Under the pieces are notes generated by a model. That model saw only the letters and a program-made list of their open reading frames with translations, was not told where the DNA came from and made no database searches. Positions 44,816 through 54,244 of a stretch of DNA of 64,000 nucleotides are shown here, piece by piece. How positions within the stretch are numbered: position 1 is the first letter of the stretch; the number at the start of each line of letters is the position of its first letter. Location: positions 5,270,001 through 5,334,000 of the forward strand of contig NZ_CP134399.1 in the NCBI RefSeq assembly GCF_002968295.1, given 5' to 3'. Origin of the DNA: Mycobacterium sp. ITM-2016-00317 (lineage in GTDB: Bacteria; Actinomycetota; Actinomycetes; Mycobacteriales; Mycobacteriaceae). The position numbers were made by a program, and so were the translations under genes.

Positions 44816-44891
44816 CGGCTCATTGTGCCAGCCGGTTGTCCGACACGCGAAACGAGCTGCCCGACGGGGCCAGGCGACTCCGGACGCTGAG

Positions 44892-44897
44892 TAGTTT
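44892..44897 (+). promoter_or_regulatory. Probable -10 element of the NRPS-headed operon
   Basis: TAGTTT fits TAnnnT and ends 6 bases before GTG 44904. No ribosome binding site is seen, so the operon mRNA may be leaderless. Confidence 0.45.
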
Positions 44898-44903
44898 GTA
44901 CCC

Positions 44904-47900
44904 GTGACAGCCATGGATCCAACCCCCGAGATCCCCGCTCAATACCTGCTGTCGGAGCTCGCTTCCCCGCCGCGCACGCTGATCGACATCCTGTACGAGA
45001 CGGCCCGCCGTTACCCCGACGCACCGGCGCTCGACGACGGAACGGTGCAGCTCACCTACGCCGAGCTGATCTCCGACGTCGAGGACAGCGTCGCGTGGCT
45101 CGGCGCCCGCGGGATCGGCCGCGGCGACCGGATCGGGATCCGGATGCCCTCGGGCAGCTATGCGCTCTACGTCGCGATCCTGGCCACGCTGGCCACCGGC
45201 GCGGCCTATGTGCCGGTCGATGCCGACGACCCGCCGGAGCGGGCCGAGCTGGTCTTCGCCGAGGCGCAGGTGGTCGCGGTGATCACCGAGCGCGGGCTGG
45301 TCCGCGGGCCCGGCGCGTCCCGCGGCTGGCGTGCGACGGCGCCGCTGAGCCGGGACGACGCATGGATCATCTTCACTTCCGGGTCGACGGGGACCCCGAA
45401 GGGCGTGGCCGTCACGCACCGCAGCGCGGCGGCGTTCGTCGACGCCGAGGCGCAGCTGTTCCTGCAGGACAACCCGCTGGGCCCGGGGGACCGGGTGTTG
45501 GCGGGGCTGTCGGTGGCGTTCGACGCGTCGTGCGAGGAGATGTGGCTGGCGTGGCGGCACGGCGCCTGTCTGGTGCCCGCGCCGCGCTCGCTGGTGCGCA
45601 GCGGCATGGACCTGGGGCCGTGGCTGGTCTCGCGCGACATCACCGTGGTGTCGACGGTGCCGACGCTGGCCTCGCTGTGGCCGGCCGAGGCGCTGGAGTC
45701 GGTGCGCCTGCTGATCTTCGGCGGCGAGGCCTGCCCGCCGGAGCTGGCCGAACGGCTCGCCGCCGGACCGGATTCGGCGGGCCGCGAGGTGTGGAACACC
45801 TACGGGCCGACCGAGGCCACCGTGGTGGCGTGCGCGGCGCGGTTGGACGGCAGGAGTCCGGTGAGCATCGGGCTGCCGCTGCCCGGATGGGACCTGGCGG
45901 TCGTCGACAAGGACGGACTGCCGGTGGCCCTCGGCGAGGTCGGCGAACTGGTCATCGGTGGGGTCGGCCTGGCCCGGTATCTCGACTCGGACAAGGACGC
46001 CGAGAAGTACGCCGCGCTGCCCTATCCGAGCCCGCTCGCGCTGTGGCCCCGCGCCTACCGCAGCGGGGACCTGGTGCGGCTGGAGTCCGACGGCCTGTAC
46101 TTCGTCGGCCGCGCCGACGACCAGGTCAAGGTCGGCGGCCGCCGCATCGAGCTCGGCGAGGTGGACACCGCGCTGATGAACCTGCCCGGGGTGACCGGCG
46201 GCGCGGCGGCGGTGCGCCGCAGCGCGTCCGGGACGCCGCTGCTGGTCGGCTACGTCGCGGTGGCGCCGGAGCTGGCCGGCGGGTTCGACGTCGCTGCGGC
46301 GCGGGCCCGGCTGTCGGAGTCACTGCCCGCGGCGCTGGTGCCCCGCCTGGTGGTGGTCGACGAACTACCCACCCGCACGTCCGGGAAGGTGGACCGCGAC
46401 GCGCTGCCGTGGCCCGTCGGGGGCACCGACACGGCCGACGCCGCCGACCTCGGGGGCACGCTCGGCTGGCTGGCCGGGCTGTGGCGCGAGGTGCTGGCCG
46501 CGCCCGTCGACGGTCCCGAAGCCGACTTCTACGCCCTCGGCGGCGGTTCGCTGTCGGCGGCGCAACTCGTCTCGGCGTTGCGGCAGCGCTACCCGCAGGT
46601 GACCGTCGCCGACGTCTACGACCATCCGCGGCTGGGCTCGCTGGCCGGATATCTCGACGAGCTCGACCCACCCCCGCCGACGGAGACCCGCGAGGTCGCC
46701 CCGGTGCCGCGGCTGACGCAGGCCGCGCAGGTGGCGCTGAGCGTGCCGCTGGCGCTGCTGACCGGCATGCAGTGGGTGGTGTGGCTGGCGATCGCGAACA
46801 ACCTCGCCGCCGCGATGTCGCTGGCCGACTGGGTGTGGCCGCTCAGCTGGTGGTGGATCCTGGCCGGTTTCCTTCTGTTCGTGACCCCGCCCGGGCGGAT
46901 GAGCATCGCGGTGTTCGGCGCGCGGGTGCTGATCGGCAACCTGCAGCCGGGCACCTACCGCCGCGGCGGCCCGACGCACCTGCGGGTCTGGCTGGCCGAG
47001 CGGCTGGCCGACGCCAGCGGCGCCGAGAACATGGCCGGGGCGCCGTGGCTGGTCTATTACGCGCGGGCGCTGGGCAATTCGGTGGGCAACGGCGTCGACC
47101 TGCACTCGGCGCCGCCGGTGACCGGCATGTTGACCCTCGGGCACCGCTGCTCGATCGAGCCCGAGGTCGACCTGAGCGGGCACTGGATCGACGGCGACCT
47201 GTTCCACGTCGGGCCGATCACCGTCGGCAACGACGCCACCGTCGGGGCCAGGACGTCTCTGCTGCCCGGCGCCGTGGTCGGCAAGAACGCCGACGTCGCA
47301 CCCGGGTCCGCGGTGGTCGGCAAGGTCAAGAACGGCCAGTACTGGAAGGGCTCACCCGCGGTGAAGTCCGGTAAGGCCAAGCATCCGTGGCCCGATCACC
47401 GTCCGCCGCGCGCGCCGCTGTGGGTGGCCGTGTACGGCGTCACGTCGATGCTGCTGGGCGCGCTCCCGCTGGTGGCGCTGGCCGCCGGGCTGGCCGTGAT
47501 CGGCTGGGGTGTGCGCGGCACCCCGACGGTGGTGTCGGCGATCGCACCGGCGCTGGCCTGGCTGGTGCCGGCCACCGCGGCGGCGCTGCTGGTGTACGCG
47601 GTGTTGACCGTGCTCGGCGTGCGGCTGCTCTCGATCGGCCTCGACGACGGCTACCACCCGGTGCGCAGCAGGCAGGGCTGGCAGCTGTGGGCGACCGAAC
47701 GTCTGATGGACGGTGCGCGCAACTACCTGTTCCCGATCTACGCGAGCCTGCTGACGCCGTGGTGGCTGCGGCTGCTCGGCGCGAAAGTCGGTAAGGGCAC
47801 CGAGATCTCGACCGCGCTGGTGATCCCGAAGTTCACCCTCATCGAGGACGGCGCGTTCCTGGCCGACGACACGATGGTCGCCTCCTACGAACTCGGTGGC

Positions 47901-48854
47901 GGCTGGATTCACGTCGCGCCGGCCACCGTGGGCAAGCGGGCGTTCCTGGGCAACTCCGGGATCACCCAGCCCGGCCGGCGGGTGCCCGACGACGGGCTGG
48001 TCGCCGTGCTGTCGGCCACCCCGCACAAGGCCAAGGCCGGCTCGTCGTGGCTGGGCAGCCCGCCGGTGCGGTTGCGCCGCAAGCCGACTGCCGCCGACGC
48101 GCTGCGCACCTTCCACCCGTCGGCGCGGCTGAAGGTGCTGCGCGCGGTGGTGGAGACGTTCCGGTTCGTGCCCGTCGCGGTGACCTTCGCGATCGGGGTC
48201 GCGGTTCTGCTTTCGCTGCAGCAGGTGGCGGTGACCTACGGCTGGCTGTGGACCGTGTTGGCGGCCGGGCCGGTGCTGCTGGCCGCGGGCGCGGTCGCCG
48301 GGATCGTCGCGGTGCTCGCGAAATGGCTTGTGGTCGGCCGGATCGGTGCGATCGAGCATCCGCTGTGGTCGGCGTTCGTCTGGCGCAACGAGGTGTCGGA
48401 CACGTTCGTCGAGACCGTCGCCGCGCCTTGGTTCGCCCGCGCGGCATCGGGTACGCCGGTGATCAACCTGTGGTTGCGGGCCCTGGGCGCGAAGATCGGA
48501 CGTGGCGTGTGGTGTGAGACGTACTGGCTTCCCGAGGCCGATCTGGTGACCCTCGGCGACGGCGCCACCGTGAACCGGGGCTGCGTGGTGCAGACCCATC
48601 TGTTCCACGACAGGATCATGCGCATGGACACCGTCGTGCTGGAACAGGGCGCGACACTGGGGCCGCACTGCGTGGCGCTGCCCGCGGCGCGCATCGGGGC
48701 GGGCGCCACCGTCGGGCCCGCGTCACTGGTGATGCGCGGCGACGAGGTGCCGCCGTCGACCCGGTGGCAGGGCAACCCGATCGCGCCGTGGCTGCCGAAG
48801 AAGAAGCGCTCCGAGACCCCGGAGCCGAAGCCCAAGAAGTCCGCGGCCGCGTGA
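44904..48854 (+). CDS. Single-module NRPS-like synthetase with membrane beta-helix domains (Pls-type), predicted to activate lysine
   Basis: A 1316-residue membrane protein. Residues 20-505 are an adenylation domain with cores A3 (FTSGSTGTPKG), A5 (NTYGPTEA), A7 (YRSGDLV) and A10 (SGKVDRDAL). Residues 520-588 are a carrier domain with phosphopantetheine Ser549 (GGGSLSA). Then come three left-handed beta-helix (hexapeptide) segments, around 740-815, 960-1060 and 1190-1290, separated by membrane helices (about 610-665, 838-910, 1085-1140). There is no condensation or thioesterase domain. This architecture is the 'NRPS terminal domain' family that includes poly-epsilon-lysine synthetase-like proteins. 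Pocket residues Asp207, Ala208, Glu211, Ser250, Ile271, Gly273, Thr299, Val307, Val308 resemble the lysine code. First gene of a coupled operon. Confidence 0.85.
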   Translation: MTAMDPTPEIPAQYLLSELASPPRTLIDILYETARRYPDAPALDDGTVQLTYAELISDVEDSVAWLGARGIGRGDRIGIRMPSGSYALYVAILATLATGAAYVPVDADDPPERAELVFAEAQVVAVITERGLVRGPGASRGWRATAPLSRDDAWIIFTSGSTGTPKGVAVTHRSAAAFVDAEAQLFLQDNPLGPGDRVLAGLSVAFDASCEEMWLAWRHGACLVPAPRSLVRSGMDLGPWLVSRDITVVSTVPTLASLWPAEALESVRLLIFGGEACPPELAERLAAGPDSAGREVWNTYGPTEATVVACAARLDGRSPVSIGLPLPGWDLAVVDKDGLPVALGEVGELVIGGVGLARYLDSDKDAEKYAALPYPSPLALWPRAYRSGDLVRLESDGLYFVGRADDQVKVGGRRIELGEVDTALMNLPGVTGGAAAVRRSASGTPLLVGYVAVAPELAGGFDVAAARARLSESLPAALVPRLVVVDELPTRTSGKVDRDALPWPVGGTDTADAADLGGTLGWLAGLWREVLAAPVDGPEADFYALGGGSLSAAQLVSALRQRYPQVTVADVYDHPRLGSLAGYLDELDPPPPTETREVAPVPRLTQAAQVALSVPLALLTGMQWVVWLAIANNLAAAMSLADWVWPLSWWWILAGFLLFVTPPGRMSIAVFGARVLIGNLQPGTYRRGGPTHLRVWLAERLADASGAENMAGAPWLVYYARALGNSVGNGVDLHSAPPVTGMLTLGHRCSIEPEVDLSGHWIDGDLFHVGPITVGNDATVGARTSLLPGAVVGKNADVAPGSAVVGKVKNGQYWKGSPAVKSGKAKHPWPDHRPPRAPLWVAVYGVTSMLLGALPLVALAAGLAVIGWGVRGTPTVVSAIAPALAWLVPATAAALLVYAVLTVLGVRLLSIGLDDGYHPVRSRQGWQLWATERLMDGARNYLFPIYASLLTPWWLRLLGAKVGKGTEISTALVIPKFTLIEDGAFLADDTMVASYELGGGWIHVAPATVGKRAFLGNSGITQPGRRVPDDGLVAVLSATPHKAKAGSSWLGSPPVRLRRKPTAADALRTFHPSARLKVLRAVVETFRFVPVAVTFAIGVAVLLSLQQVAVTYGWLWTVLAAGPVLLAAGAVAGIVAVLAKWLVVGRIGAIEHPLWSAFVWRNEVSDTFVETVAAPWFARAASGTPVINLWLRALGAKIGRGVWCETYWLPEADLVTLGDGATVNRGCVVQTHLFHDRIMRMDTVVLEQGATLGPHCVALPAARIGAGATVGPASLVMRGDEVPPSTRWQGNPIAPWLPKKKRSETPEPKPKKSAAA

Positions 48855-50197
48855 CATTACGCAAGAGCGCCGCCAAGAAGGGTGCTGCGCCCGTGATCGA
48901 CCCGTACCTGCCCGGGTCGGGCAATTTCGGGTACCGGGTCTCGCGCTACGAGCTCGAGCTGGAGTACAAGGTCGCGATCAACCGGCTGGCCGGCGCGGCC
49001 ACCATCACCGCGGTGACGCTCGCGGAGCTGAAGACGTTCACCCTCGACCTGTCCGACGCGCTGGCGGTGGCCAAGGTCACCGTGAACGGCAAGCGGCCCG
49101 CGCAGTACCGCGCCTCGGCGGGCAAGCTGCACGTCACCTTGTCCGATCGGCTGCCCGCCGGCGCGGCGATGACGGTCGCGGTGCGCTACGGCGGCAACCC
49201 CCGGCCCACCCGAAGCCTGTGGGGCGAAGTCGGTTTCGAGGAGCTCACCGAGGGCGTGCTGGTGGCCGGGCAGCCCAACGGCGCGTCGTCCTGGTTCCCG
49301 TGCGACGACCATCCCAGCGCGAAGGCCAGCTTTCGCGTCCAGATCGCCACGGAGAGCCCGTATTTCGCGTTGGCCAACGGAAAGCTGTTGGACCGCCGGG
49401 CCCGGGCGGGGATGACCACCTGGGTTTACGAACAGGCCGAACCGACGTCGACGTATCTGATCACGCTGCAGATCGGCATGTACGGACGGCATCGGATGGC
49501 CAAGAACGGCGTCGAGATGTTCGCGGTGCTGCCCGACCGGCTGCGGGACGACTTCGAGCACGACTTCGCCCGCCAGCCGCAGATGATGAAGCTGTTCACC
49601 AAGCTGTTCGGGCCCTATCCGCTGGCCACCGGATACACCGTGGTGGTGACCGACGACGACCTGGAAATACCCCTTGAGGCGCAAGGCATCTCGATCTTCG
49701 GCGCCAACCACTGCGACGGCCGCCGGGGGTCGGAGCGGTTGATCGCCCACGAGCTGGCGCACCAGTGGTTCGGCAACTCGGTCACGGCGCAGCGCTGGCG
49801 CCACATCTGGCTGCACGAGGGCTTCGCGTGCTACGCGGAGTGGCTGTGGTCCGAGCACTGCGGTGAGCGCACCGCCGACGAGTGGGCCCGCCACTACCAC
49901 CACCGGCTGCGGCATTCGGCGCAGGACCTGGTGCTGGCCGACCCGGGCCCCCGCGACATGTTCGACGACCGCGTCTACAAGCGTGGCGCGCTCACCCTGC
50001 ACGCCCTGCGCGGACGCCTCGGAGATGCCGACTTCTTTGCGCTACTACGGGATTGGACGGACCGCCACCGGCACTCCAGCGTGGTCACCGACGACTTCAT
50101 CGCGCTGGCCGCCCGGTACACCGACGAATCGCTGCGCCGACTGTGGACGGCGTGGCTGTACTCACCGGAGGTCCCTGCGCTGGACGCGGGGCCGTGA
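48851..50197 (+). CDS. Short M1-family zinc aminopeptidase
   Basis: A 448-residue metallopeptidase with the M1 N-terminal beta-saddle (residues 20-210) and thermolysin-like catalytic domain. Zinc site: HELAH with the distal Glu in HEGFACYAEW. The amine-recognising Glu is probably in PLEAQGIS, taking the place of GAMEN, as in other short actinobacterial M1 enzymes. The C-terminal helical domain of full-size M1 enzymes is missing. No signal peptide, so cytosolic. GTG 48851 overlaps the stop of the NRPS-like gene (GTGA). In this operon it could act on the amino-acyl product; inference only. Confidence 0.88.
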   Translation: MTLRKSAAKKGAAPVIDPYLPGSGNFGYRVSRYELELEYKVAINRLAGAATITAVTLAELKTFTLDLSDALAVAKVTVNGKRPAQYRASAGKLHVTLSDRLPAGAAMTVAVRYGGNPRPTRSLWGEVGFEELTEGVLVAGQPNGASSWFPCDDHPSAKASFRVQIATESPYFALANGKLLDRRARAGMTTWVYEQAEPTSTYLITLQIGMYGRHRMAKNGVEMFAVLPDRLRDDFEHDFARQPQMMKLFTKLFGPYPLATGYTVVVTDDDLEIPLEAQGISIFGANHCDGRRGSERLIAHELAHQWFGNSVTAQRWRHIWLHEGFACYAEWLWSEHCGERTADEWARHYHHRLRHSAQDLVLADPGPRDMFDDRVYKRGALTLHALRGRLGDADFFALLRDWTDRHRHSSVVTDDFIALAARYTDESLRRLWTAWLYSPEVPALDAGP

Positions 50198-51483
50198 CCG
50201 ACGCGACGGCCGGACCCTCGGGTGCGGTGACCCGGGGCAGTGTGGTCCGGGTCGGGGTCGCGACGGCGCTGTCGGCCCTGTGCGGATACGCGGTGCTGTA
50301 CCTGGCCGCCCGCGATCTGGAGCCCGCCGGCTTCTCGGTGTTCGGGGTGTTCTGGGGCGCCTTCGGACTGGTCAGCGGCGCCGCGTTCGGACTGCTGCAG
50401 GAGACGACGCGCGAGGTGCGGTCGCCGTCTGCGGCGCCCGGTGACAAGAAGGCGCACCCGATGCGCGTCGCGGCCGGCGTCGGCGTCGGCGCGGCCGCGG
50501 TGATCGCCGTCTCCGCGCCGGCGTGGTCCGGGTACGTGTTCGCCGACGCCCGGGTGCTGAGCGTGATCCTGCTCAGCGCGGGCCTGGCCGGGTTCTGTCT
50601 GCACACCACGCTGCTGGGCGCGCTGGCCGGGATGAACCGGTGGTCGGAGTACGGGGCGCTGATGGTCGCCGACGCAGCACTGCGTGTCGCGGTCGCCGCG
50701 GCGACGTTCGCACTGGGGTGGGGCCTGGGCGGCTACCTGTGGGCCACGGTCGCCGGCGCGTTCGCGTGGCTGCTGATGCTGGTGGTGTCCCCGGCGAGCC
50801 GGATGGCGGCCCGGCTGCTGACCCCCGGCGGGACGGTGACGTTCCTGCGCGGGGCAGGGCACTCGATCGCAGCCGCAGGCGCCAGCGCGGTACTGGTGAT
50901 GGGATTCCCGGTGCTGCTCAAGGCCACCGCCGGGGAGCTCGGCGCCACCGGCGGAGTGGTGATCCTGGCGGTGACGCTGACCAGGGCGCCGCTGCTGGTG
51001 CCGCTGACCGCGATGCAGGGAAACCTGATCGCCCACTTCGTCGACCAGCGCGAACACCGCCTCAAGGCGCTCGTCGTGCCGTCGGCGGTGGTCGCCGGGC
51101 TCGGCGCGGCCGGGGTCGCGCTGGCGGGCGCGTTCGGGCCGTGGCTGCTGCGGGAGGCGTTCGGTGCGCAGTACCAGGCGGACGGCACCCTGCTGGCCTG
51201 GTTGACCGCGGCGGCCGTCGCCGTCGCGCTGCTGACGCTGACCGGCGCCGCGACGGTGGCCGCCGCGCTGCACCGCGCCTACGCGGCAGGCTGGGTGATC
51301 GCGACGCTGGCGGCCACGCTGTTGCTGCTGCTTCCGCTGGAACTGGAAGTGCGCACCGTCATCGCGCTGCTGTGCGGACCGCTGCTCGGGATCGCGGTGC
51401 ATCTGAGCGCACTCGTTACGGTGGCATATCGACGACCCGGTTCCACCGAGCCGCGTCCGACGACGACGAAGGAGACACCGTGA
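50194..51483 (+). CDS. Polysaccharide-type flippase / MOP-superfamily membrane protein (Rv3630-like)
   Basis: A 429-residue polytopic protein with 11-12 hydrophobic segments, starting with GSVVRVGVATALSALCGYAVLYLAARDL, a typical first helix of Wzx/MurJ-like (MOP) flippases, which move lipid-linked saccharides across the membrane. Charged residues are rare and sit in loops. GTG 50194 overlaps the M1 peptidase stop (GTGA), and its own stop overlaps the galE start (GTGA). The neighbouring epimerase supports a saccharide cargo. The exact substrate is unknown. Confidence 0.82.
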   Translation: MTDATAGPSGAVTRGSVVRVGVATALSALCGYAVLYLAARDLEPAGFSVFGVFWGAFGLVSGAAFGLLQETTREVRSPSAAPGDKKAHPMRVAAGVGVGAAAVIAVSAPAWSGYVFADARVLSVILLSAGLAGFCLHTTLLGALAGMNRWSEYGALMVADAALRVAVAAATFALGWGLGGYLWATVAGAFAWLLMLVVSPASRMAARLLTPGGTVTFLRGAGHSIAAAGASAVLVMGFPVLLKATAGELGATGGVVILAVTLTRAPLLVPLTAMQGNLIAHFVDQREHRLKALVVPSAVVAGLGAAGVALAGAFGPWLLREAFGAQYQADGTLLAWLTAAAVAVALLTLTGAATVAAALHRAYAAGWVIATLAATLLLLLPLELEVRTVIALLCGPLLGIAVHLSALVTVAYRRPGSTEPRPTTTKETP

Positions 51484-52472
51484 CCTGGTTGGTGACCGGC
51501 GGCGCCGGCTACATCGGCGCGCACGTGGTGCGGGCACTGCGCGACGCCGGGCTGGGCATCGTCGTGATCGACGACCTGTCCACCGGCCTGGCGCAGTTCG
51601 TGCCCGACGGCGTGCCGCTCGTCACGGCGAACCTGCTCGACGCCGACACCGTGCGCGCGACGCTGGACGAGCACCGCGTCAGCGGAGTCATCCATATCGC
51701 CGGCTACAAGTACGCCGGCGAGTCGGTGCAGCGTCCGCTGCACACCTACCAGCAGAACGTGTCCGCGATGGTGACGCTGCTGGACGCGGCGACCGCCGCC
51801 GGCGTCGACAAGTTCGTGTTCTCCTCCAGCGCGGCGACCTACGGCACCCCGGCGACCGAGGTCGTCGACGAGGGCACATCCACCCGCCCCGAGTCGCCGT
51901 ACGGCGAGAGCAAACTGATCGGCGAATGGCTGCTGCGCGACGTCAGCACCGCCACCGGGCTGCGCCACACCAGCCTGCGCTACTTCAACGTCGTCGGCTC
52001 GGGCTCGGATGACGTGTTCGACGTCAGCCCGTTCAACCTGTTCCCGAGGGTGTTCGACATGCTGCTGCGCAACGAGACCCCCCGGATCAACGGCACCGAC
52101 TACCCGACCCCGGACGGGACGTGCGTGCGCGACTACGTGCACGTCGCCGACATCGCCGCCGCCCACGTCGCGGCCGCCCGCCGGCTCGCCGACGGCAGCC
52201 CGATCGAACCGGTCTACAACCTCGGCAGCGGATCGGGCACCTCGGTGCGCGAGATCATGACCACCATGCGCGAGGTCACCGGCGTCGACTTCGAACCGGA
52301 GGTGGCGCCGCGCCGCCCCGGCGACCCGGCCCGCATCGTCGCCGACGGCACGCTTGCCGCCCGCGACCTGGACTGGAAGATGCGGCACTCGCTGACCGAC
52401 ATGGTGGCCTCGGCGTGGTCGGCCCGCCAGGCCGCCGGTCAGGCCTGCCCGACCGCGGGGACGGTCCCCTGA
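51480..52472 (+). CDS. galE: UDP-glucose 4-epimerase
   Basis: An extended short-chain dehydrogenase of 330 residues that interconverts UDP-glucose and UDP-galactose. The NAD-binding GGAGYIGAH, the catalytic Ser in FSSSAATYG and the YxxxK pair (SPYGESK) are intact, and the RYFNVVGS and CVRDYVHVADIA segments are GalE hallmarks. Ribosome binding site AAGGAG lies before GTG 51480, which overlaps the flippase stop. The TGA stop overlaps the probable CTG start of the next gene. Confidence 0.9.
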   Translation: MTWLVTGGAGYIGAHVVRALRDAGLGIVVIDDLSTGLAQFVPDGVPLVTANLLDADTVRATLDEHRVSGVIHIAGYKYAGESVQRPLHTYQQNVSAMVTLLDAATAAGVDKFVFSSSAATYGTPATEVVDEGTSTRPESPYGESKLIGEWLLRDVSTATGLRHTSLRYFNVVGSGSDDVFDVSPFNLFPRVFDMLLRNETPRINGTDYPTPDGTCVRDYVHVADIAAAHVAAARRLADGSPIEPVYNLGSGSGTSVREIMTTMREVTGVDFEPEVAPRRPGDPARIVADGTLAARDLDWKMRHSLTDMVASAWSARQAAGQACPTAGTVP

Positions 52473-54244
52473 TCGCGACGAGGAACTGGGTCGCCCGCAC
52501 CGCGGTGGCGCTGATCGCGCTGCAGCTGGTGATCCGGGCGGTGCTGGCGTTCGGTGGCTACTTCTACTGGGACGACCTGATCCTGATCGGTCGGGCCGGC
52601 ACCCAACCCCTGCTGTCCCTGGGCTATCTGTTCGACGACCACGACGGGCACGTGATGCCCGGGGCGTTCCTGGTCGCCGGCGTGATCACCCGGCTGGCGC
52701 CGCTGGACTGGATCGGGCCCGCGGTCAGCCTGGTGCTGCTCGCGCTGCTGGCGTCGCTGGCGTTGCTGCGCGCGCTGTACGTGATCCTGGGCTGGCGCCC
52801 GGTGTTGTTGCTGCCGTTGACGTTCGCGCTGTTCACACCACTGGCGGTACCCGGGTTCGCGTGGTGGGCGGCGGCGTTGAACTCGCTGCCGATGCTGGCG
52901 GCACTGGCATGGGTGAGCGCCGAGGCGATCCTGTTGGTGCGCACCGGAAACCGGCGGCACGTCTGGTCCGGGGCGCTGGTGTATCTGGGCGCCCTGCTGT
53001 TCTTCGAGAAGTCGGCGATCATCCCGTTCGTCGCGTTCACCGTCGCGGCGCTGTACGGGTACGTCACCGGGTCCGCGACCGTCGCCCAGGTGTGGCGCCG
53101 CGGACTGCGGCTGTGGAGGGCATCGGCGGCGCTGACGGTGGCGTGGGTCGGGGTCTACCTGCTGGTGGTGGATCAGCAGCGGTGGAGTTTCGACCTCGCG
53201 ATGACCTGGGATCTGTTGCGCCGCTCCTTCACCCACGGCATCGTGCCCGGTCTGGTCGGCGGGCCGTGGGACTGGCAGCGGTGGGCGCCGGCCTCCCCGT
53301 GGGCGACTCCCCCGCTCACGGTGATGGTGCTCGGCTGGCTGGCCCTGGGCGCCGTCGTCGCGGTGACGCTGCTGCGCAAGCGTCGCCTCGGCCCGGTATG
53401 GCTGGCCGCGCTGGGCTACGCGGTGGCCTGCCAGGTGCCGATCTATCTGATGCGCTCGTCGCGGTTCACCGCGCTGGAACTGGCGCAGACGTTGCGGTAC
53501 CTGCCCGATCTGGTGGTGGTGCTGGCGCTGCTGGCCGCCGTCGGCCTGTGCGCGCCGAACCGCGAGCGTTCGCGGTGGCTGGATGCCTCGCCGGGGCGCA
53601 CTGCCGTGACCGTATGCGCCGCAGTGGCTTTCATGGCCAGCAGCCTGTACTCCACGTCGACGTTCCTGACCAGCTGGCGGGACAACCCGGCCCAGCCGTA
53701 TCTGCAGAACGCGCGGGCCGGGCTGGCGCAGGCGCACGCGTCGTCGGACTCGCCGATGCTCGACCAGGAGGTCGATCCGCTGGTGCTGCAGCGGGTGGCG
53801 TGGCCGGAGAACCTGGTCTCACACATGTTCGCGCTGCTGCCGGATCGCCCCGAGTTCGCCGCTGCCGCCACCGATCTGCGCATGCTGGACAGGCAGGGCA
53901 ACCTCGTCGACGCGCTGGTGACGTGGGTGCGCAGCATCCGCCCGGGACCCGATCCGCAGTGCGGCTACCTCGTGCAGCCCGACTTTCCGGTCAGCATGCC
54001 GCTGGACGGCCCGCTGCTGCCCGCGGACTGGACCGTGGAACTCAACTACCTGGGCAACAGCGACGGTTCGATCACCGTGTCGCTGTCGGAGGGCGAGGCG
54101 GTGAAGGTGCCGGTGCGGCCGGGACTGAACCGGGTCTTCGTCCGGCTGCCCGGCGCGGGCGACGCGATCACCGTCAGTGCCGACACCGCGGCGCTGTCGG
54201 TGTGCGTGGCCTCGGGTCCCGTCGGGTTCGTCGCGCCGATCTAG
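52469..54244 (+). CDS. GT-C-like polytopic membrane protein (Rv3635-like), probable CTG start
   Basis: A 591-residue integral membrane protein with 10-12 helices and a C-terminal soluble beta-rich domain (residues about 480-591). After the first helix the loop holds YWDDLILIG, an acidic pair at the place where GT-C glycosyltransferases have their catalytic Asp, so transfer of a sugar from a polyprenyl-phosphate donor on the outer face is plausible. No ATG, GTG or TTG fits the N-terminus; CTG 52469 overlaps the galE stop as CTGA, in line with the GTGA junctions upstream, and gives a natural basic start before helix one. GTG 52415 is the alternative. Confidence 0.8.
   Translation: MIATRNWVARTAVALIALQLVIRAVLAFGGYFYWDDLILIGRAGTQPLLSLGYLFDDHDGHVMPGAFLVAGVITRLAPLDWIGPAVSLVLLALLASLALLRALYVILGWRPVLLLPLTFALFTPLAVPGFAWWAAALNSLPMLAALAWVSAEAILLVRTGNRRHVWSGALVYLGALLFFEKSAIIPFVAFTVAALYGYVTGSATVAQVWRRGLRLWRASAALTVAWVGVYLLVVDQQRWSFDLAMTWDLLRRSFTHGIVPGLVGGPWDWQRWAPASPWATPPLTVMVLGWLALGAVVAVTLLRKRRLGPVWLAALGYAVACQVPIYLMRSSRFTALELAQTLRYLPDLVVVLALLAAVGLCAPNRERSRWLDASPGRTAVTVCAAVAFMASSLYSTSTFLTSWRDNPAQPYLQNARAGLAQAHASSDSPMLDQEVDPLVLQRVAWPENLVSHMFALLPDRPEFAAAATDLRMLDRQGNLVDALVTWVRSIRPGPDPQCGYLVQPDFPVSMPLDGPLLPADWTVELNYLGNSDGSITVSLSEGEAVKVPVRPGLNRVFVRLPGAGDAITVSADTAALSVCVASGPVGFVAPI

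Follow-up and report, generated by a model that had tools for sequence, protein, structure and literature searches.

The question raised by five genes lying end to end at positions 44904 to 54244 of the window, a stretch of 64,000 nucleotides from the genome of the environmental mycobacterium Mycobacterium sp. ITM-2016-00317 (a single contig of 6.06 Mb), is whether they serve one pathway. A preliminary description had assigned all five to a single route, leading to an amino-acid-decorated glycolipid or a short aminoacyl polymer. The analysis presented here points instead to two modules on one likely transcript, with a probability of roughly 0.8: a Pls-type synthetase with its partner peptidase (genes 1 and 2) and an envelope-glycan set (genes 3 to 5).

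44879 to 44903, + strand: putative leaderless promoter, with a -10-like TAGTTT (44892-44897) that ends 6 nucleotides 5' of the GTG of gene 1
44904 to 48854, + strand: gene 1, pls, predicted epsilon-poly-L-lysine synthetase (TIGR02353, PF00501, PF00550, PF00132, 7WEW match, pocket)
about 44958 to 46418, + strand: adenylation domain of gene 1
about 46467 to 46655, + strand: carrier domain of gene 1
about 46725 to 48782, + strand: predicted membrane polymerisation domain of gene 1
48851 to 50197, + strand: gene 2, predicted PldII-type two-domain M1 zinc peptidase (PF01433, PF17900, HELAH-18-E, overlap with pls)
50194 to 51483, + strand: gene 3, membrane protein of the MOP superfamily (Wzx/MATE fold), candidate flippase for a lipid-linked sugar (AlphaFold2, Foldseek)
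51480 to 52472, + strand: gene 4, galE, UDP-glucose 4-epimerase (TIGR01179, 327.4 bits, cut-off 262.3)
52469 to 54244, + strand: gene 5, predicted membrane glycosyltransferase of GT-C-like type, carrying beta-strands in its C-terminal region (AlphaFold2, Foldseek)

The synthetase and its coupled peptidase

Gene 1 matched TIGR02353 (Pls/PosA) over its full length (2-695 of 695) scoring 738.8 bits where the cut-off is 423.1, in agreement with the synthetase type first proposed. A Pfam scan of its product returned only AMP-binding, PP-binding and Hexapep matches, with no classical condensation or thioesterase domain. The best solved relative of the adenylation domain was the S. albulus epsilon-poly-L-lysine synthase 7WEW (621 bits; 319 of 494 aligned residues identical, 64.6%), and PosA scored 187 bits. 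The lysine pocket, DAESIGTVVK, was the same as that of 7WEW at 10 of 10 positions, which were placed using PheA motifs. The pocket was complete in 107 of 111 Pls rows; the other four were fragments, with zero mismatches in the part covered. Roles in the lysine pocket have been described for D213, E217, S256, T301 and K495 of Pls_A (PMC11253843). By domain order, family and pocket, gene 1 probably encodes a lysine-type Pls, its closest relatives being those of Mycolicibacterium sp. CR10, M. vanbaalenii BC8_1 and M. pyrenivorans. The aminoacyl polymer suggested earlier as one possible product, and the lysine guessed for it, fit this family and pocket well.

The product of gene 2 matched Peptidase_M1, as its earlier name implied, and its nearest PDB entry was 6a8z, a zinc metalloprotease of 474 residues. 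No hydrophobic stretch was detected in the protein by Kyte-Doolittle analysis. The zinc motif HExxH-18-E was present in 109 of 109 M1 rows. PldII is itself presumably an M1 enzyme. In S. albulus, the aminopeptidase gene pldII is translationally coupled to pls (PMC9223678). Family and pls-coupled position together suggest that gene 2 is of the PldII type.

The first module would operate as follows. Pls would adenylate L-lysine and then load it onto its own carrier domain; the C-terminal membrane domain, with its hexapeptide-type repeats, would join the lysines through isopeptide bonds to form epsilon-poly-L-lysine; the polymer would exit the cell; and the M1 enzyme would cut the polymer, most likely in self-protection or turnover.

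Junctions, gene order and distribution

The five open frames contain no internal stops, and the junctions between them are, in gene order, the four-base overlaps GTGA, GTGA, GTGA and CTGA, exactly as previously read. Such junctions would permit co-translation of all five genes. Among loci of relatives holding both genes of a junction, the four-base overlap was found between pls and the M1 gene in 95 of 109 and between the M1 and MOP genes in 28 of 32; given this recurrence, the overlaps are more than a product of chance. The remaining 14 pls-M1 loci comprised one with a one-base overlap, four with other spacing, five with a gap of 0.6-2.1 kb (Tsukamurella, Williamsia) and four in which the pls match seemingly extends beyond its stop. 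All junctions were also checked in 20 fetched genomes lacking ppgS, a gene of arabinogalactan galactosamination considered below; these genomes were hand-picked, not random. Here, the overlap was seen in 19 of 19 cases for pls-M1, 18 of 19 for M1-MOP, 9 of 19 for MOP-galE and 10 of 19 for galE-GT-C, with all four together in 5 of the 20 genomes. Conservation thus holds for the pls-M1 and M1-MOP junctions, and the MOP-galE and galE-GT-C junctions vary.

The five-gene order itself was unbroken in 16 of these 20 genomes, so the conservation beyond this genome on which the preliminary description depended does hold. Of the other four, G183 lacks M1, G028 and G039 have MOP and galE separated by 2.5 kb, and the galE of G077 is a distant one encoded on the opposite strand. 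The order was also unbroken in 7 of 80 named loci (L010, L011, L016, L019, L020, L037 and L079), and L089 holds it with an insert; the galE that separates MOP from GT-C is, at many loci of mycobacteria, of a distant type and on the other strand. The distance from MOP to pls was obtained for the 111 Pls genomes with both coordinates, 37 Pls genomes falling outside the count. MOP lay one M1-sized step downstream of pls in 85 of these and 14-16 kb upstream of it in 6; in 1 (G183) it came immediately after pls, in 9 it was more than 170 kb away and in 10 it sat on a separate contig. In eight genomes (G161, G031, G108, G006, G023, G064, G110 and G026), pls is ∼170-230 kb from MOP. At L025, L031, L032 and L035 (asiaticum, angelicum and one further species), the flank fetched around pls-M1 contains neither MOP nor galE nor GT-C, and a gene that is GntR-like by eye lies upstream of pls in L025, L032 and L035.

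TANNNT positioned 4-9 nucleotides 5' of an in-frame start is the mark of a leaderless start. Near the expected place, 33 of 75 loci carry this element, and every one of the 33 belongs to the mycobacterial group (to which L026, L029 and L040 were assigned via the tree, not by name); it was not found in three mycobacterial loci (L024, L032 and L036) or in 39 of 39 non-mycobacterial loci. The motif count indicates that a leaderless promoter is likely at pls, heading the operon.

Distribution was assessed in 198 genomes sampled evenly from the genus of the window, together with 14 control genomes. Pls exceeded the TIGR02353 cut-off in 149 of the 198 and in 1 of the 14 controls; cross-counts with Pls given below use the 148 genomes tabulated as over the cut-off. 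Only the family cut-off was used for these calls because, at E 0.001, the family matched nearly everywhere (197 of 198 genomes and 13 of 14 controls). With presence of M1 defined as a best E below 1e-100, by which G089 (4.4e-24) and G115 (2.0e-32) were scored as lacking it, Pls and M1 agreed in 194 of 198 genomes, the four exceptions being G183 (Pls, no M1) and G045, G126 and G176 (M1 present, Pls match short of the cut-off). The 3.3-Mb genome G115 gave several weak M1 and MOP matches, a faint Pls match and strong PpgS and GT-C matches, a pattern suggestive of decay in a genome of reduced size.

A quick Pls tree, supported by the Shimodaira-Hasegawa-like approximate likelihood ratio test only, was built from 71 rows (the window and 70 of the 80 loci; five fragments and five loci with a stop inside the translated match were left out). 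This tree tracks taxonomy. Given that the mycobacterial rows form one clade with support 100, the asiaticum-type rows within it, inheritance of pls appears mainly vertical, and recent foreign acquisition of the gene is not supported. The labels of L040 (Bifidobacterium) and L049 (Cyanobacteriota lineage) seem to be mis-binned or mislabelled.

The envelope-glycan genes and ppgS

No Pfam or NCBIfam family matched gene 3 or gene 5; the names MOP flippase and GT-C, proposed at the outset, are supported by predicted fold, weakly in the case of GT-C, and GalE stands by its family score. For gene 3, the AlphaFold2 model (mean predicted local distance difference test score, pLDDT, 88.9) was aligned by Foldseek with WzxE 9g9p at template modelling (TM) scores of 0.69/0.72 and with MATE 3wbn at 0.62/0.60. 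For gene 5 (pLDDT 78.4), the top match was ArnT 5f15 (TM 0.38/0.41). At E 0.001, 12 matches were obtained, with low TM scores of 0.3-0.4 on a model of pLDDT 78, and all were ArnT, arabinosyltransferase or oligosaccharyltransferase-holding entries, which we take to be GT-C proteins. A GT-C enzyme would be expected to have an acidic first outer loop; in the gene 5 product, acidic residues D35, D36, D57 and D59 are invariant. Its start has two options, CTG at 52469 or an in-frame GTG at codon 8. The galE-GT-C junction reads CTGA in the window and in 9 of the 19 fetched relatives having both genes in line, and database entry P0121 likewise begins this protein at the CTG.

MOP and GT-C were each matched in 195 of 198 genomes of the genus, with or without Pls, and the gene 5 product thus appears to be an uncharacterised, near-universal mycobacterial protein. 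No remnant of Pls or M1 was found beside MOP at E 1e-3 in the 13 stretches searched: 10 from genomes with no Pls above the cut-off, 2 from genomes in which pls lies elsewhere and 1 from G045, whose genome has the sub-cut-off Pls match and M1 elsewhere.

PpgS loads N-acetylgalactosamine (GalNAc) onto a lipid carrier for the galactosamine of arabinogalactan, and the flipping factor of this route has been called unidentified (PMC9671496). At mycobacterial locus L012, MOP and GT-C flank ppgS, the gene right after MOP being PpgS by its NCBIfam equivalog (420 bits, cut-off 370). At Speluncibacter L061, PpgS (410 bits) follows MOP after one opposite-strand gene, as delimited by a simple gene caller. 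No PpgS ortholog was found in the window's genome, where the best match to the L012 protein was 28% identical (E 6.7e-10), and canonical galE occupies the slot between MOP and GT-C in which L012 has ppgS.

A PpgS ortholog, scored as present when its best E was no higher than 1e-50 (which admits the partial match of G015 at 3.7e-55 and leaves out G079 at 4.0e-21), was absent from 51 of the 198 genomes. M. smegmatis also lacks ppgS (PMC3485146). In the 38 of these 51 genomes with both coordinates, the gap from MOP to GT-C was ∼1 kb in 30 and 3.4-4.0 kb in 8. The ortholog was absent from 48 of 148 Pls carriers and present in 47 of 50 genomes without Pls over the cut-off, a negative association (Fisher p 1.3e-4, kinship not corrected); PpgS is therefore not a requirement for carrying Pls, nor is it confined to genomes that do. 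The idea that galactosamine is an obligatory self-protection of polylysine makers was dropped on the same count of 48 carriers. Both Pls and PpgS were absent from only 3 of 198 genomes (G005 and G052, incomplete; G072, complete), again with kinship not corrected.

In the second module, GalE would provide a uridine diphosphate-linked sugar, a sugar on a lipid carrier would be flipped by the MOP protein, and the GT-C enzyme would then transfer this sugar to an acceptor outside; in the window's genome, the module would run without ppgS, canonical galE filling the gap. The near-universal MOP gene (50194-51483 in the window) stands directly before ppgS in L012 (L012:15240-17243) and is kept in ppgS-less genomes too. 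The MOP protein is a candidate for the polyprenyl-phosphate-GalNAc flippase.

Weighing of the readings and known systems

Several points weigh against two modules with epsilon-poly-L-lysine as the product of the first. No polymer was detected from C. variabile itself or from its induced gene in C. glutamicum (PMC8117764); given that the C. variabile gene gave none natively, gene 1 may be silent in the window's organism. Inactivation of Pld and PldII in Streptomyces left both yield and chain length unchanged (PMC8506220), which speaks against length control by gene 2, and no such role is claimed here. Finally, the M1-MOP overlap is kept in relatives and is present in Speluncibacter L061, and two unrelated modules would need less linkage.

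A rival to the two-module account is a functional partnership, in which Pls and the envelope genes are expressed together so that a wall decoration protects the producer against its own polycation or holds that polymer in place; the decoration would be galactosamine in ppgS-bearing relatives and perhaps a galactose-derived sugar in the window's genome. The conserved Pls-M1-MOP coupling and the position of PpgS after MOP in L012, and just beyond it in L061, are in keeping with this reading. Amine decoration reduces cation binding, a further point in its favor. However, the distribution of PpgS orthologs across genomes with and without Pls runs against it, and co-location may reflect inherited synteny: 11 of 40 non-mycobacterial loci likewise have dac and ppa upstream of pls. 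A partnership is considered unlikely.

It is also rather improbable that the mycobacterial Pls uses another diamino acid, or makes short cell-bound oligomers, so that its product is not the known epsilon-poly-L-lysine. Homologs with different pockets do use ornithine or other substrates (PMC10522769), but the pocket of gene 1 equals that of a lysine-using Pls at every position and is unvaried in the 107 complete rows.

A single pathway from five enzymes to an aminoacylated glycolipid, for which the overlaps, the common direction and the unbroken order in some relatives speak, is highly improbable and was rejected on the ground that nearly every genome of the genus sample has genes 3 and 5, with or without genes 1 and 2, which co-vary; moreover, MOP was matched near Pls in only 2 of the 40 non-mycobacterial loci (L056 and L061; fetched flank only, some flanks short), the mycobacterial galE is often of the distant, other-strand type, and nothing was found pointing to an amino-acid-decorated glycolipid.

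The two-module reading needs no direct chemical link between its parts. It proposes a named product for an operon whose synthetase is found in three-quarters of the genus sample, and epsilon-polylysine, an antimicrobial polymer that other actinobacteria produce and degrade with this gene pair, may be made by many mycobacteria. Is such a polycation in fact produced in the genus, why is a quarter of the genomes without the gene, and is the near-universal MOP protein the flippase sought in arabinogalactan galactosamination (PMC9671496)? A broader proposal, that most Mycobacterium species normally make surface or secreted epsilon-polylysine in step with wall glycosylation by way of a single coupled operon, and that lineages in which the pair was lost depend on the galactosamine of arabinogalactan instead, is unlikely.

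No report of a mycobacterial Pls was among the matches listed in the open-licence literature; a Nocardia Pls was predicted in 2014 (PMC4035055). The preliminary description knew of no described product and so missed the pls-pldII pair with its known epsilon-poly-L-lysine (PMC9223678; PMC8117764). The S. albulus pair resembles that of the window in domain order, in all ten pocket positions and in the adjoining coupled aminopeptidase (PMC9223678), whereas the window pair lies upstream of envelope glycan genes, has a leaderless-type start and has a predicted product. The Pls of C. variabile shares 51% identity with Streptomyces Pls, is likewise in an operon with a peptidase and made polymer in S. 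coelicolor; the Results of that paper mention no MOP, galE or GT-C partner (PMC8117764). PosA, the delta-poly-L-ornithine synthetase, shares the TIGR02353 family by NCBI's family name, but its adenylation domain is far more distant from gene 1 than that of 7WEW (187 versus 621 bits) and its operon has a single gene, unlike that of the window (PMC10522769).

In mycobacterial L012, MOP and GT-C, which we take to correspond to Rv3630 and Rv3635, flank a gene set like the galactosamination locus, whereas the window's genome has canonical GalE in place of a PpgS ortholog. That locus comprises ppgS, Rv3632 and Rv3634c in M. tuberculosis, with a counterpart in C. glutamicum (PMC9671496, PMC5389812). 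An Rv3632-like partner and an Rv3779-like transferase would also belong to such a locus. In summary, the pls-pldII pair is already known; what is new is how widely it occurs in the genus, that it is coupled to a candidate flippase gene present in nearly every genome sampled, and the pattern in which it is missing.

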